DNA of 64,000 nt from Streptomyces sp. NBC_00464. Its GTDB lineage: Bacteria; Actinomycetota; Actinomycetes; Streptomycetales; Streptomycetaceae. This document shows, piece after piece, positions 24,493-30,082 of the stretch (within the stretch, counting starts at the first letter, position 1; every line of letters begins with the position of its first letter). Below the pieces are notes generated by a model. That model was not told the DNA's origin. It ran no database searches and saw only the letters and a program-made list of their open reading frames with translations. The stretch covers positions 2,232,001 through 2,296,000 of the forward strand of contig NZ_CP107899.1 of assembly GCF_036013915.1 (NCBI RefSeq). Direction: 5' to 3'. A program made the translations under genes and the position numbers.

Positions 24493-26508
24493 TCAGTCCG
24501 GCGCGCCGCCCGCCCGCCTCACCTTGTGCAGCAGGTACTCCTTCCGGTTGAGCGGGTTGTGGTCCGTGCGGGAGCGCCGGGGGGCGGCGCCGGTGACGGG
24601 GCGGTGGGTGTCGAAGGCGGTCTCCAGCAGTCCTTCACCCCGGGTCAGCCCCGGGAGCCGCTGCTGGAGTTCGTGCACCCGGGCGGCCGGGATCTCGCCC
24701 TCCAGTACGCAGTGGGCGCCGTCGACGGACGGGGGGCCCGGAACGGCCCGCAGATGGGCGAGGACCGGCAGGAGGGGGCCGAGAGTGTCCGCGGGAAACT
24801 CCGCCCTGAAGCGGTGCATCGGCTCGTACACCGTGGTGCCGGCCTGCCGGAGCGCGGCCATCAGCACCAGCGGGGTCAGATTGCGGAAGTCCCCGGCCGT
24901 GCTCGACATGGACTTGTCGAACACCGCGTGCGAGTGGCTCTGCCGGGGCCAGTAGCCGGAGTGCGTCATCGTGACCGTGCAGTCGGTGACGCGCCAGCCG
25001 TACAGGCCCTGTCCGAGCGTTTCGACGACGGTCTCCTCGACGGCTCTCATCAGGGAGTACGGCATCGAGCCGAGCTCCACCTCCAGCCGGTAGGCCACAC
25101 CGCTGCCGGGCGGGGCCGGGTCGACGCGCAGTCCGACCGTCGCGAGAAACGGGTTGTCCTCCTTGTTGATGATCTCGAAAGCGGCACCGGTGCCGGACGG
25201 TTTCTCCAGGCAGATGGTCGTGGTTCCGCGGAAACCGGCATCGATTCCGAATTCGTCCGCGAGCGTCGCCTGGATGACTTCTTTCTGCACTTCGCCGTAG
25301 AGCGATACGGAGACCTCCTTCCGGATGTCGTCCTGCCGCAGATTGATCAGTGGATCCTGCTCGGCGAGCTGCGCGAGCGCGAAATGCAGTTCGCCCCGGG
25401 AGGCGGGCGGGGCGGCCACCACCACGGATTCCAGCGTCGGCGGGGCGAAGTGGTGCGCGGTGGCCGCCGCGCGGATGTCGCCGACCGCGTCGCCGATCCG
25501 GATGTCGCCGAGTCCCCGGAGCTTCGCGATCTGCCCCGGTCCGGCCGATGCGGCCTCGGCGTCCGCGCCGTCGGCGAAGATCCGGACACCGGTCACCTTG
25601 CCCTCGGACACGTCGCCGGGGCCCTGCCCGAACACGAGCCGGTCACGGGTGCGTACGGTTCCCGAGAACATCCGGGCCCAGGCCAGCTTCTCGCCGGCCC
25701 GGCCGCGTTCCACCTTGAAGACGGTGCCGGAGACCGGCCCGTCCGCCTCGCCCCCTGCCGCGGGCAGCAACTCCTTGATCCCGCGGGTCAGTGCGGTGAT
25801 ACCGGCGCCCGTGACGGCCGAACCGAAGTACACGGGGTGGACGAGCGCCCGCTTGGTCTGCGCCGCCAGTTCCGCGCGGAGCCGGGCGGGGGCGAGTACC
25901 TCGCCGTCCTCGATGTACGCGGCCAGCAGGGCGTCGTCGTGCTCGGTGAGCAGGTCGGTGAGCCGGCCCGTGAGCCGGTGGTCGTCGTCCGCGTACGGCA
26001 CGCTGCGGGCGTCTCGGGTGCCGAGGCCGGTGACGGCCGGACCCATCGCGACCGCGTGCGGCGTGAGCTTCTCCGCGATGTCGCGCAGCACCTGCGCGTA
26101 CCGGGCTCCGGCCCGGTCGGTCTTGTTCACGAAGACGAGCGTGGGGATGCGCAGGCGCTGGAGCGTCCGCATCAGCACGCGGGTCTGGGCCTGCACGCCC
26201 TCCACGGCGGAGATGACCAGCACCGCGCCGTCGAGCACGCTCAGCACCCGCTCCACCTCGGCGATGAAGTCCGGGTGGCCGGGCGTGTCGATCAGGTTGA
26301 CGGTGACGTCGTCGAGGGCGAACGAGACGACCGCGGACTTGATCGTGATGCCGCGCTGCCGTTCGAGGGCGAGGGAATCGGTCTGTGTGTTCCCGTCATC
26401 GACGCGGCCGATCTCGTCGATGATTCCGGCGGTGTGGAGCAGCCGCTCGGTCAGGCTCGTCTTACCGGCGTCGACATGCGCCAGAATGCCAAGATTCAGC
26501 GTGTGCAC
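24493..26508 (-). CDS. otrA: Ribosomal-protection tetracycline-resistance GTPase, Otr(A)-like
   Basis: EF-G-like GTPase of 671 residues, the usual length of Otr(A)/Tet(M) proteins, which displace tetracycline from the ribosome. GTPase motifs: HVDAGKTSLTE (residues 11-21), RGITIKSA, DTPGHPDF, VNKTDRAG. Tet-type signatures follow: GSMPYSLMRAVEETV near 510 and a short C-terminus with PLNRKEYLLHK. GTG 26508 is the conserved-length start (VHTLNLGILAHVDAG). A 36-codon upstream ORF overlaps the start. Many Streptomyces carry such a gene without tetracycline production; self-resistance is an inference. Confidence 0.92.
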   Translation of the reverse strand: MHTLNLGILAHVDAGKTSLTERLLHTAGIIDEIGRVDDGNTQTDSLALERQRGITIKSAVVSFALDDVTVNLIDTPGHPDFIAEVERVLSVLDGAVLVISAVEGVQAQTRVLMRTLQRLRIPTLVFVNKTDRAGARYAQVLRDIAEKLTPHAVAMGPAVTGLGTRDARSVPYADDDHRLTGRLTDLLTEHDDALLAAYIEDGEVLAPARLRAELAAQTKRALVHPVYFGSAVTGAGITALTRGIKELLPAAGGEADGPVSGTVFKVERGRAGEKLAWARMFSGTVRTRDRLVFGQGPGDVSEGKVTGVRIFADGADAEAASAGPGQIAKLRGLGDIRIGDAVGDIRAAATAHHFAPPTLESVVVAAPPASRGELHFALAQLAEQDPLINLRQDDIRKEVSVSLYGEVQKEVIQATLADEFGIDAGFRGTTTICLEKPSGTGAAFEIINKEDNPFLATVGLRVDPAPPGSGVAYRLEVELGSMPYSLMRAVEETVVETLGQGLYGWRVTDCTVTMTHSGYWPRQSHSHAVFDKSMSSTAGDFRNLTPLVLMAALRQAGTTVYEPMHRFRAEFPADTLGPLLPVLAHLRAVPGPPSVDGAHCVLEGEIPAARVHELQQRLPGLTRGEGLLETAFDTHRPVTGAAPRRSRTDHNPLNRKEYLLHKVRRAGGAPD

Positions 26509-26572
26509 AGAACTCCATGTTCTCAGGGGTGAAGTGAATTCCCGTCGAGACGAACATGTGAGATCGGCGCAT
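26462..26572 (-). CDS. Overlapping upstream ORF at the otrA start (36 aa)
   Basis: A 36-codon ORF starting ATG 26572 with a canonical AGGAG six bases ahead and ending TAA at 26462. It starts MRRSHMFVSTGIHFTPEN and ends in CRRR. It overlaps the first 47 bases of the resistance gene in another frame, so it must be translated, or skipped, before or instead of GTG 26508. Its ribosome site is stronger than that of the resistance gene (GGAG with only four bases). Leader ORFs are common before ribosome-directed resistance genes. Confidence 0.45.
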   Translation of the reverse strand: MRRSHMFVSTGIHFTPENMEFCAHAESWHSGACRRR

Positions 26573-26913
26573 CGATTTCTCCTGGTCCTGTCGGCTGATG
26601 CGGCGAGTAGAACAGCGGGCCGACCGGCGGTGCAACCCATTTACCGGGATGCCGCGAGTACTGCCGCGCGGTGAGACTCCGTCAGCAAACGGGGGATACG
26701 AAGCCGGTCAAACCTCGCTCCGGCGCGGCGTGCCGTCCAACGGGTGATTATCCGTTCTTCGCCACTCGATGGGCCCATGCCGTAGCTCCAATGCGGCGCT
26801 CTCCGATGGCGGGCCCCGGACTCCGGGCTGACGGTGGATCACGTAGCCACTGCGCCACTCTGGGTCGACACTTCGTCACTCTTCGCAGTCGCGACGAAAG
26901 GAAACGTGTTCAG
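26573..26913. other. Gene-free region between divergent otrA and repeat-protein gene
   Basis: This 341-base stretch holds the likely promoters of both genes. I see no well-formed -35/-10 pair. Close to the plus-strand gene, TTCGTC (26872-26877) pairs with GACGAA (26893-26898), just upstream of the ribosome site GAAAGG; this could form a 5' UTR stem. No further ORF or dyad stands out. Confidence 0.45.
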
Positions 26914-27896: not shown

Positions 27897-28655
27897 ATGG
27901 CCGCCCCGCAGTCGCCCGGTTCCCCCTCCTCCCGGACTGCCTCCGACACCGTCACTCTCGGCCGCGCCCTGCTCTGGCCCGCCGCAGTGGCAGGACTCGG
28001 CATGCTCCTGATCTACAACTCCATCGGCCCCTCGGCCGACGACAAACCACCCGCCCCGTTCGCCGCCCCGGCGCCCGTCGCCCCGGCCCCCGCGGCTCCG
28101 GCCCCCGCCGCCGCATCCTCACCGGCCGCCGCCGTCCCCCGGCAGGCCACCCCCGCCCCCACCCCCACTCCGACCACCGCGCCGGCCCTGTCCCGTTCCG
28201 TGCCGACCCGGCTCAAGATCCCGGCCATCGCGGTGGACGCCCCCTTCACCCCGCTGTCGATCGGGGCCTCCGGCCGCCTGGACGCTCCTCCGCCGAACGA
28301 CAGGAACCTGGTCGGCTGGTTCAAGGGCGGCGTGACGCCGGGCGAGCGCGGGGCCTCGATCGTGGCCGGCCACGTCGACACGATGACCGGCCCGGCGGTC
28401 TTCCTCCAGCTGCGCTTCCTGCGGCCCGGATCGACGGTCGACATCACGCGCGCGGACGGCACGGTGGCCACGTTCAAGGTCGACACCGTCGAGACGTTCA
28501 GCAAGGCGAAGTTCCCCGACAAGCGGGTCTACGCCGACACCCCGGACGCCCAGTTGCGCCTGATCACATGCGGTGGCACCTACGACAAGAAGGCCAAGGA
28601 CTACGAGGACAACGTGGTCGTGTTCGCGCACCTCGACTCGGCCAAGAAGGGATGA
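27897..28655 (+). CDS. Class F-type sortase
   Basis: Membrane-bound transpeptidase-like protein of 252 residues: N-terminal membrane helix (about 26-44, LLWPAAVAGLGMLLIY), a Pro/Ala-rich linker, and the sortase barrel. The catalytic His is in VAGHVDT (about 159) and the Cys in LITCGGTYD (about 224). The last 20 residues after the Cys, where sortases carry an essential Arg, hold Lys residues but no Arg (KKAKDYEDNVVVFAHL). ATG 27897 follows AAAGG. It is downstream of the repeat protein, its probable substrate. Confidence 0.88.
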   Translation: MAAPQSPGSPSSRTASDTVTLGRALLWPAAVAGLGMLLIYNSIGPSADDKPPAPFAAPAPVAPAPAAPAPAAASSPAAAVPRQATPAPTPTPTTAPALSRSVPTRLKIPAIAVDAPFTPLSIGASGRLDAPPPNDRNLVGWFKGGVTPGERGASIVAGHVDTMTGPAVFLQLRFLRPGSTVDITRADGTVATFKVDTVETFSKAKFPDKRVYADTPDAQLRLITCGGTYDKKAKDYEDNVVVFAHLDSAKKG

Positions 28656-28707
28656 GCCGCCGTGCTCCCCCGGTGGAAAACCCCGTGCGACGGGCCGTGG
28701 CCGCTGC

Positions 28708-28713
28708 TAGCGT
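28708..28713 (+). promoter_or_regulatory. -10 box of a leaderless leader-peptide transcript
   Basis: TAGCGT (TANNNT type) lies seven bases before ATG 28721, the spacing of leaderless Streptomyces transcripts. No good -35 is visible (the region 28684-28690 is CG-rich). This would start transcription of the attenuator region described at 28721. Confidence 0.5.
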
Positions 28714-28720
28714 CCCCCGC

Positions 28721-28774
28721 ATGAAGAAGCGCGCTGCGATGACGACGACGCCGGAGAGTGTCCCGGCGCGCTGA
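28721..28774 (+). CDS. Thr-codon leader peptide of a putative attenuator (17 aa)
   Basis: MKKRAAMTTTPESVPAR, 17 residues, ends TGA. Codons 8-10 are three consecutive Thr codons (ACG ACG ACG, 28742-28750). The next gene encodes a threonyl-tRNA synthetase-like protein. The RNA can form a 9-bp helix 1:2 (28728-28736 with 28764-28772, one GU), an alternative helix 2:3 (28760-28766 with 28795-28801, one GU) and a 12-bp terminator (28789-28800 with 28807-28818). A ribosome stalled on Thr codons would block 1:2, favour 2:3 and prevent the terminator; this is the standard attenuation logic, inferred from sequence. Confidence 0.7.
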   Translation: MKKRAAMTTTPESVPAR

Positions 28775-28788
28775 CTGCTGACCAGTCC

Positions 28789-28818
28789 GAAGCCCCGGGG
28801 CGAGTGCCCCGGGGCTTC
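28789..28818 (+). terminator. Attenuator hairpin before the ThrRS-like gene
   Basis: GAAGCCCCGGGG (28789-28800) and CCCCGGGGCTTC (28807-28818) form a perfect 12-bp stem with a six-base loop, 40 bases before the synthetase start. The left arm shares 28795-28800 with the alternative antiterminator pairing. The T-run after it is weak, which is usual in Streptomyces. Confidence 0.75.
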
Positions 28819-28858
28819 TGCTTGCGGTCACTCGCCCTTCGTACGCGAGGAGACCGCC

Positions 28859-30082
28859 ATGCACGACCACCGCAAGCTCGGCCGCGAGCTGGAGCTGTTC
28901 GACACCGACCCGCTGATCGGTGCGGGGCTTCCGTACTGGCTGCCGGACGGTGCGGCGCTGCGGCACACCCTGGAGGAGTACATCCGCACCGCCGAGCGGC
29001 TGGCGGGCTACCGCCACGTGTACTCGCCGGTGCTCGGCAAGCGGGAGCTGTACGAGATCTCGGGGCACTGGTCGCACTACAGCGACGACATGTTCCCGCC
29101 GATGGACCTGGGCGGCGAACAGGTCGTACTGCGGCCGAGCCTGTGCCCGCACCACGCGGTCATCTACCGCTCCCGCTCGCACAGTTACCGCGAGCTGCCG
29201 CTGCGGATGGCCGAGCTGGGCGGCATGTACCGCTCCGAGCTCTCCGGGGTGCTCGGCGGGCTGACCCGGGTGCGGGCCATCCAGTTGAACGACGCCCACA
29301 TCTTCTGCACCCTCGACCAGGTCGCCGGGGAGGCGCGGGCCGCGCTGGACATGATCCGCCGGGCGTACGAGGCACTCGGCATCCGTCCTGCGCGCTTCCG
29401 GCTCTCGCTGCCGGGCCCTGGCGGAAAGTACGTCGCCGCGCCGGAGATGTGGCAGCGTTCCACCGCCCTGCTGACCGAGGTACTCGACGCCTCCGGGCTG
29501 CCGTACGAGGCGGTCGAGGGCGAAGCCGCGTTCTACGGGCCGAAGATCGACGTCCAGGTCGCCGACGCGGCGGGCCGGGAGTCGACCCTGTCGACCGTCC
29601 AGGTCGACTTCCACCAGCCGGAGCGGTTCGATCTGCACTACATCGGCGCGGACGGGGCGAAACACCGGCCGGTCATGGTGCACCGCAGCATCATCGGCAG
29701 CGTGGAGCGGGCCGTCGCCCACCTCATCGAGCAGCACGGCGGCGCGTTCCCGGCCTGGCTCTCCCCGGTCCAGCTGGTCATCCTGCCCGTCTCGGACGCC
29801 GAACTGCCGAACGCCGAGGATCTCGCCGCCCGTTGCACCGCGCTAGGGCTGCGCGCGGAGGTCAGCGGCCGGGAGCGCGGCAGCCTGGGGGCCAGGATCC
29901 GGGAGGCCCGTCTGGTGCCGTACCAGGCGGTCGTCGGCGCCGCGGAGGCCGCGGACGGCCTGGTGGCTCTGCGTCTGCGGGACGGCCGCCGCCTCGATCC
30001 GCTGCCGGCGGCGGGGGTGCTGGAGCGGATCGGGGCACTGGTCGCGGCGCACACCACCGAATTGTGGGACTCGGGTCACTAG
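28859..30082 (+). CDS. Threonyl-tRNA synthetase-like protein lacking editing domain
   Basis: Class II aminoacyl-tRNA synthetase fragment-type protein of 407 residues. The catalytic core begins at DHRKLGRELELFDTD and GLPYWLPDGA, motif 2 as RPSLCPHHAVIYRS with zinc ligand Cys, a later His in SHSYRELPLRMAE, and motif 3 near VMVHRSIIGSVERA. The last 90 residues are the anticodon-binding domain (VQLVILPVSDAE). The N-terminal TGS and editing (N2) domains of full ThrRS (about 640 residues) are absent. ATG 28859 follows GAGGAG with six bases. It overlaps the convergent MFS gene by four bases. It may be a stress or antibiotic-insensitive second enzyme. Confidence 0.88.
   Translation: MHDHRKLGRELELFDTDPLIGAGLPYWLPDGAALRHTLEEYIRTAERLAGYRHVYSPVLGKRELYEISGHWSHYSDDMFPPMDLGGEQVVLRPSLCPHHAVIYRSRSHSYRELPLRMAELGGMYRSELSGVLGGLTRVRAIQLNDAHIFCTLDQVAGEARAALDMIRRAYEALGIRPARFRLSLPGPGGKYVAAPEMWQRSTALLTEVLDASGLPYEAVEGEAAFYGPKIDVQVADAAGRESTLSTVQVDFHQPERFDLHYIGADGAKHRPVMVHRSIIGSVERAVAHLIEQHGGAFPAWLSPVQLVILPVSDAELPNAEDLAARCTALGLRAEVSGRERGSLGARIREARLVPYQAVVGAAEAADGLVALRLRDGRRLDPLPAAGVLERIGALVAAHTTELWDSGH

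Follow-up and report, generated by a model that had tools for sequence, protein, structure and literature searches.

In ermC-type translational attenuators, stalling within a leader ORF frees a sequestered Shine-Dalgarno (SD) sequence by means of a drug-dependent arrest peptide. The classical trp, his and thr attenuators of enteric bacteria are built on a leader ORF, regulatory codons and the helices 1:2, 2:3 and 3:4, all of which recur at the Streptomyces locus described here. Which codons such a leader should carry is the subject of the selective tRNA charging theory, stated in the passages of PMC1183508 used here, which also give the E. coli thr leader as having eight ACC codons; in this theory, the attenuator codons expected are those whose tRNA empties first. 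Closest to the present case is thrL of S. lividans, located before thrS and described, in the part of PMC8079986 that deals with it, as leaderless by RNA-seq and as having one hairpin, no uridine-rich sequence and a termination that is 'not clear'. An earlier note on the DNA studied here knew of amino-acid-operon attenuators in Streptomyces but not of this one, whereas thrL was already listed in that paper.

The window (the whole stretch of 64,000 nucleotides of Streptomyces sp. NBC_00464 that was analysed) carries a second threonyl-tRNA synthetase gene (thrS2, product ThrRS2), and upstream of it we found in place all the elements that had been pointed out there: a TAGCGT, a 17-codon ORF, three ACG codons and three helices. 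We believe, with a probability of about 0.8, that they form an attenuator which works through the ribosome and controls an inducible backup ThrRS, sensor codon and structural gene being split between tRNA-Thr isoacceptors. The features are the following:

28708..28713, + strand: -10 element TAGCGT (TAnnnT), 7 nt ahead of the leader ATG at 28721
28721..28774, + strand: leader ORF thrL, MKKRAAMTTTPESVPAR, 17 codons and TGA at 28772-28774, probably leaderless
28728..28736, + strand: segment 1, pairing with 28764-28772 (helix 1:2)
28742..28750, + strand: regulatory codons, ACG three times (ACG ACG ACG in 137/140 leaders)
28760..28772, + strand: segment 2, with 28764-28772 pairing to segment 1 and 28760-28766 to 28795-28801 (helix 2:3)
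28789..28818, + strand: hairpin 3:4, arms 28789-28800/28807-28818, no U-tract after it
28799..28806, + strand: helix E, 5' strand GGCGAGTG, around the 3:4 loop and complementary to 28829-28836
28824..28857, + strand: predicted SD-sequestering hairpin F', 28824-28829/28852-28857 and 28831-28835/28845-28849
28829..28836, + strand: helix E, 3' strand CACTCGCC, alternatively within the SD hairpin
28847..28852, + strand: SD GAGGAG of thrS2, as read from the sequence
28859..30082, + strand: thrS2, encoding ThrRS2 (407 aa), all 12 Thr codons being ACC

According to Pfam, ThrRS2 consists of the class II core and the anticodon-binding domain only, the N-terminal domains being absent, and TIGR00418 matched it with 445 bits, above its cut-off, over profile positions 171-562 of 565. 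The alignment and motifs show the Cys and His residues that we take to be the zinc ligands. A full-length primary thrS is also present in the window's genome, its product being 45% identical to ThrRS2. In eight other loci (L145, L089, L144, L147, L164, L166, L167 and L169) the conserved start of ThrRS2 appeared to be preceded by long and variable N-terminal extensions with a high content of His, Asp and Pro. About 2 kb upstream of the leader, the window carries a gene for an Otr(A)-like ribosomal protection protein (24496-26640, - strand), which scored 753 bits against a curated cut-off of 900.

Upstream regions of ThrRS2 genes were taken from the 80 best relatives in the genome collection, in which more existed, and from a class sample drawn evenly, where ThrRS2 was present in 62 of 394 genomes at E <= 1e-105; one extra distant locus (L096) was found by a covariance model. 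Leaders were called by a fixed rule, which required TAnnnT, a spacing of 5-8 nt, an ATG or GTG start, a length of 10-40 codons with three Thr codons in a row, and a position up to 600 nt upstream. A leader was found in 140 of 142 loci, which are partly dependent (L117 is the window's own gene, and removing identical sequences leaves 138 of the 140), as compared with a single hit in 2800 Markov-random sequences and none in 416 other stretches of real DNA. The Thr leader peptide proposed earlier is supported. These leaders are 16-28 codons long and contain three or more Thr codons in a row, and their N-terminal part varies between loci in length and sequence. The two misses were L167, with 103 nt upstream only, and L016 (Streptomyces inhibens), which had no leader within the 155 nt to the contig end and kept the hairpin and the downstream strand; a natural loss or an assembly error could account for the latter. 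In the class sample, the leader was present in 60 of the 62 ThrRS2 genomes, the remaining two (G515, with the 103 nt of L167, and G650, with 54 nt) being short of upstream sequence. Leader, Thr run and hairpin are kept before ThrRS2 genes in several actinobacterial families. One leader, that of L020 (Microtetraspora malaysiensis), was by eye near-identical, together with the sequence preceding it, to that of L013 (Streptomyces anulatus), which may reflect a very recent transfer or a mislabelled assembly.

While the rule allowed 5-8 nt between TAnnnT and the start codon, all 140 leaders had a spacing of either 7 nt (121 leaders) or 6 nt (19 leaders). This matches the expectation for leaderless transcripts, which in S. 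lividans show TAnnnT at an average spacing of 6.3 nt in the data given in PMC8079986. A simple promoter scan of 28400-29000 yielded no site. With all 140 spacings at 6-7 nt and the RNA-seq start of S. lividans thrL, the earlier suggestion of a leaderless leader is very probably correct, and the thrL transcript of the window very probably starts at the leader ATG.

The 110-nt fold of the window's leader region had a z of -4.84, and none of 200 shuffled sequences was equally stable. Judged from positions and folds, helices 1:2, 2:3 and 3:4 are mutually exclusive and so placed that stalling decides among them. Segment 2 (CCCGGCGCGCTGA) is preserved in 133/140 leaders, and helices 1:2 and 2:3 are almost invariant. 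The 11 variant leaders among the 140 gave a mixed result, native pairing being better than swapped pairing in 7/11 for 1:2 and in 6/11 for 2:3. Among the most distant leaders, L096 has the same layout in different letters, CTCCGG for segment 2 and CCGGAG for the hairpin arm; the closing pairs of 1:2 are CAGTGC/GCACTG in L173 and CACACC/GGTGTG in L174. Even without the leader, the window RNA folds best into hairpin 3:4, so that the ON state must be kinetic.

The hairpin that had been taken for a 12-bp terminator is real and has in fact 13 pairs, an extra one (28801/28806) closing a GAGT loop, but two observations qualify its role as a terminator: at least 5 T in the 8 nt after hairpin 3:4 were found in 0/140 loci, and a simple terminator scan of 28400-29000 detected no terminator-like site. 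Neither the T-box nor any other Rfam family reached its gathering score, the 12 weak matches all lying below. What follows the hairpin was studied in two alignments from the leader to the SD, A1 (41 of 75 sequences, hand-picked for diversity, with five loci unparsed and L016 without the motif) and the more diverse A3 (64 of 68 sequences, L136, L141, L156 and L157 having been removed manually because they were difficult to align, and L096 being absent). In a MAFFT alignment of 67 leaders (A2), several rows had the downstream strand in the wrong place, and A2 was excluded from the counts; L174 and L175 were omitted from A2, A3 and the native-versus-swapped test of helix E. In A1, 96.3% of the helix E cells were paired and 3 pairs had changed on both sides, a number reached in 12 of 500 shuffles. 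In 17 of the 20 variants of the loop, which are phylogenetically non-independent, the native strands paired better than swapped ones (mean -18.6 vs -15.8 kcal/mol, p = 8e-5). For F', the inner part was paired in 95.1% of A1 cells, with 1 pair changed on both sides (232/500 shuffles as high); in A3, 80.3% of cells were paired and 8/11 pairs had changed on both sides, as against 4.9 +/- 1.2 after shuffling (5/500 as high). In the 59 sequences of the class set, native F' pairing was also stronger than swapped pairing (-16.6 vs -14.5, p = 2e-6), and the F' region folded with a mean z of -1.76, below -1 in 44/59. RNAalifold on A3 did not recover F'. Compensatory changes, which the earlier note had suggested looking for in 1:2, 2:3 and 3:4, were found in helix E and F'; 1:2 and 2:3 were near-invariant and, in their 11 variants, equivocal. 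In silico, the unpaired probability of the SD was 0.34 vs 0.36 with a shuffled spacer (138 sequences, p = 0.14); with the loop freed, it was 0.43 vs 0.36 for a shuffled loop in the same 138 sequences (p = 2e-6) and 0.37 vs 0.33 in the 59 of the class set (p = 0.08).

The absence of a U-tract, together with a covarying SD hairpin and its competing pairing, indicates that control may end at translation too, a possibility to which RNAalifold and the SD accessibility values lent no support. The textbook attenuation claimed before holds for the leader and the competing helices, but purely terminator-based control is not established. We propose instead a relay from 1:2 or 2:3 to 3:4 or E and then to F' or an open SD, the last step being no more than plausible. 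It is rather unlikely that attenuation is purely transcriptional, with 3:4 acting as an intrinsic terminator devoid of a U-tract and the downstream helices being incidental. This explanation accounts for the fact that 1:2, 2:3 and 3:4 compete just as in classical attenuators, and for a hairpin 3:4 that is very stable and strongly conserved, but it meets a U-tract in none of the 140 loci and needs another cause for the covariation of helix E and the SD hairpin. A purely translational attenuation, with constant read-through and stalling that merely frees the thrS2 SD, is unlikely. It would agree with the missing U-tract and with the covariation of the SD hairpin and its competitor; however, SD accessibility was hardly altered in silico, and a hairpin 3:4 of such strength (11-15 bp in 121/140 loci) seems too much for a mere switch element. 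The mixed relay is the reading that we retain below.

The second line of evidence comes from the Thr codons. Those of the 140 leaders (450 in all) are ACG in 420 cases, ACC in 26 and ACT in 4. In contrast, ACG makes up 4 of 1368 Thr codons in the ThrRS2 genes of the 140 loci, 108 of the 112 full genes having none, and 2 of 526 in the class sample, where 60 of 62 genes lack it. Primary thrS uses it in 153 of 661 Thr codons (23%; 29 genes of class genomes, from the 30 best loci of 57 genomes after L259 was dropped at a contig edge), one of the 29 genes being without ACG. In 200 flanking ORFs, chosen by a crude GC3 rule, ACG accounts for 1307 of 3877 Thr codons (34%), and none of the 188 with at least 8 Thr lacks it. 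ACG is the most depleted codon of ThrRS2 in comparison with both flanking ORFs and primary thrS, and the contrast with neighbouring genes is roughly hundredfold. The earlier note had overlooked this scarcity of ACG. ACA was also scarcer than in flanking ORFs (2/1368 vs 136/3877) but not clearly rarer than in primary thrS (1/526 vs 4/661). Thr itself makes up 2.1% of ThrRS2, 3.75% of the homologous part of primary thrS and 6.2% of flanking ORFs. Since ACG was not depleted in the other two reading frames of ThrRS2 genes, avoidance of an endonuclease motif was rejected as a cause. Across a whole gene family, sensor codon and structural gene are on opposite sides of the divide drawn by the selective charging theory, and a literature search of limited depth turned up no other structural gene described as having lost its own sensor codon. 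In the class sample, we also observed an enrichment of the Lys codon AAA in ThrRS2 (50/261 Lys codons vs 27/724 in primary thrS).

That ACG is missing through high expression or foreign codon usage, and not because of the sensor, seems improbable. ACG use does rise with NNG use across flanking ORFs (r = 0.44), and among 226 ORFs with at least 8 Thr in 400 kb of the window's genome plus the window, the four without ACG were ThrRS2, a short ORF with 9 Thr and two genes of the NNG-avoiding locus L299, which have an overall C-ending bias. However, the NNG share in four-fold boxes is 0.02 and 0.09 in these L299 genes and 0.53 in the window's ThrRS2; the other seven four-fold boxes of ThrRS2 genes use NNG at 0.80-1.11 of the flanking rate, and, in the same genome, ACG does occur in primary thrS and in two thrC-like genes. 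At locus L299 (G000:C1:6000001-6020000), the genes with this avoidance (PLP decarboxylase-like, molybdopterin-binding and branched-chain amino-acid ABC ATPase) have a share of G-ending codons in four-fold boxes of 0.02-0.09. It is very improbable that the leader is an arrest peptide sensing a ligand or drug and not Thr-tRNA, since, despite a near-invariant C-terminal PAR (132/140), an indel in L152 and L154 shifts the frame after the Thr codons (TTTP) and changes the peptide end while the GC-rich core of segment 2 stays intact, which argues for a pairing role of segment 2, and six further leaders (L140, L142, L096, L173, L174 and L175) keep TTTP and end differently, the N-terminal part being variable in any case.

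The tRNA-Thr genes typed in the genome are two GGT, one TGT and one CGT (75 tRNA matches, of which typing excluded six of 83-88 nt and three had no ARAGORN call); an extra tRNA-Thr CGT lies in an unusual tRNA array, and ARAGORN also gave one long, dubious GGT candidate. By the usual decoding rules, ACG is presumably read by tRNA-Thr CGU, possibly also by UGU, and the Thr codons of ThrRS2 almost only by GGU. Taken with the typed set, these rules imply that sensor and structural gene are read by different isoacceptors, a split that makes the selective charging theory testable by synonymous changes alone. The array itself is compact (G000:C1:7113351-7114209; L187, L204), comprises Asp, Arg-ACG, Met, Trp, Thr-CGT and Pro-TGG and looks like a mobile-element array; it holds the second ACG-reading tRNA-Thr.

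The leader, its spacing, the Thr run, hairpin 3:4, the covariation of helix E and F' and the codon partition are features of the sequences compared, and from them we infer how the stalling, the order of folding and the switch itself would proceed. The attenuator would sense charged tRNA-Thr, chiefly the ACG-reading isoacceptor, with the second ThrRS as its target and transcription very probably beginning at the start codon of the leader itself. With ample Thr-tRNA, the ribosome would reach the stop codon, leaving segment 2 covered or paired to segment 1; with segment 2 unavailable, hairpin 3:4 would form, the thrS2 SD would fold into the next hairpin and expression would be low. A ribosome stalled at the ACG codons would let segment 2 pair with the 5' strand of 3:4; the polymerase would then continue, and the freed loop may pair with the strand that otherwise closes the SD. 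Since thrS2 uses almost only ACC and ACT, its mRNA could still be translated when the tRNA that reads ACG is uncharged.

The ThrRS2 gene is accessory, being present in 62 of 394 genomes; primary thrS was found in 57 of 60 class genomes, the other three being less than 80% complete. The 13 proteins of non-Streptomyces origin were scattered over a tree of 81 ThrRS2 sequences (10 changes vs a shuffled mean of 12.4); strongly supported branches force at least three changes, and many branches are weak. This fits horizontal spread and does not prove it. A sortase gene lies near 10 of 80 ThrRS2 loci and an MFS gene near 9 of 80, some loci ending at contig ends; with so few, no operon or cluster is implied. 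Among 110 loci, the only tRNA gene adjoining ThrRS2 was one tRNA-Cys. The position of E. coli Leu489 (human Leu567) is Gln in 113/113 ThrRS2 rows and Leu in the primary enzyme, and that of human Gln566 is His in 111 of 113, the primary enzyme having Asn-Leu at both positions. Leu489 is a borrelidin-resistance site, and human Q566 and L567 are among the four positions altered in the borrelidin producer, according to the portion of PMC4389257 concerned. A replacement at Gly463, of the obafluorin type, was not seen in the three commonest ThrRS2 forms (104/113 rows), which retain AAFYGPK. The Gln at the Leu489 site, read with the borrelidin literature, makes an inducible backup against ThrRS inhibitors a fair hypothesis for the physiological role of ThrRS2.

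More tentatively, the parts could be joined into an isoacceptor-partitioned emergency circuit, in which a leader read by tRNA-Thr(CGU), a purged and Thr-poor mRNA and an RNA relay to the SD would bring about the synthesis of a mobile ThrRS2 when the primary enzyme fails. If true, this would be an extreme natural case of the selective tRNA charging theory, acting on a synthetase that moves horizontally and is possibly insensitive to borrelidin. The results suggest that actinobacteria possess a second ThrRS that can be induced to meet natural inhibitors of the enzyme, and that leaders labelled 'termination unclear' may work on translation.

In comparison with described resistant second ThrRS enzymes (that of S. 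parvulus and ObaO of P. fluorescens, in the relevant parts of PMC4389257 and PMC11252418), ThrRS2 is likewise altered at the borrelidin pocket. However, whereas four positions are changed in the S. parvulus enzyme, ThrRS2 differs at two (human Q566 and L567), the other two and Gly463 being unchanged in the forms inspected; the Q566 position is likewise altered, to Asn, in the primary ThrRS, and the resistance of ThrRS2 is putative. With regard to the regulatory region, the classical enteric attenuators differ from that of the window, which has a paralogous synthetase as its target, is very probably leaderless, lacks a U-tract and has an extra, predicted SD hairpin, and the ACC codons that PMC1183508 gives for the E. 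coli thr leader contrast with ACG here. Like the ermC type, the window's attenuator would free a sequestered SD, but it would sense through Thr codons and not through a drug-dependent peptide. The thrL-thrS locus of S. lividans TK24 (Table 4 of PMC8079986), probably an orthologue to judge from leader similarity, likewise has a leaderless Thr leader (MKRVRPFLETTPGFVPAR), one hairpin and no U-rich stretch, with two Thr residues as against three in the window; the entry there contains no analysis of conservation, competing helices, an SD hairpin or codons. The present work adds a predicted SD hairpin with a competing pairing and, most importantly, the finding that sensor and synthetase make opposite codon choices.
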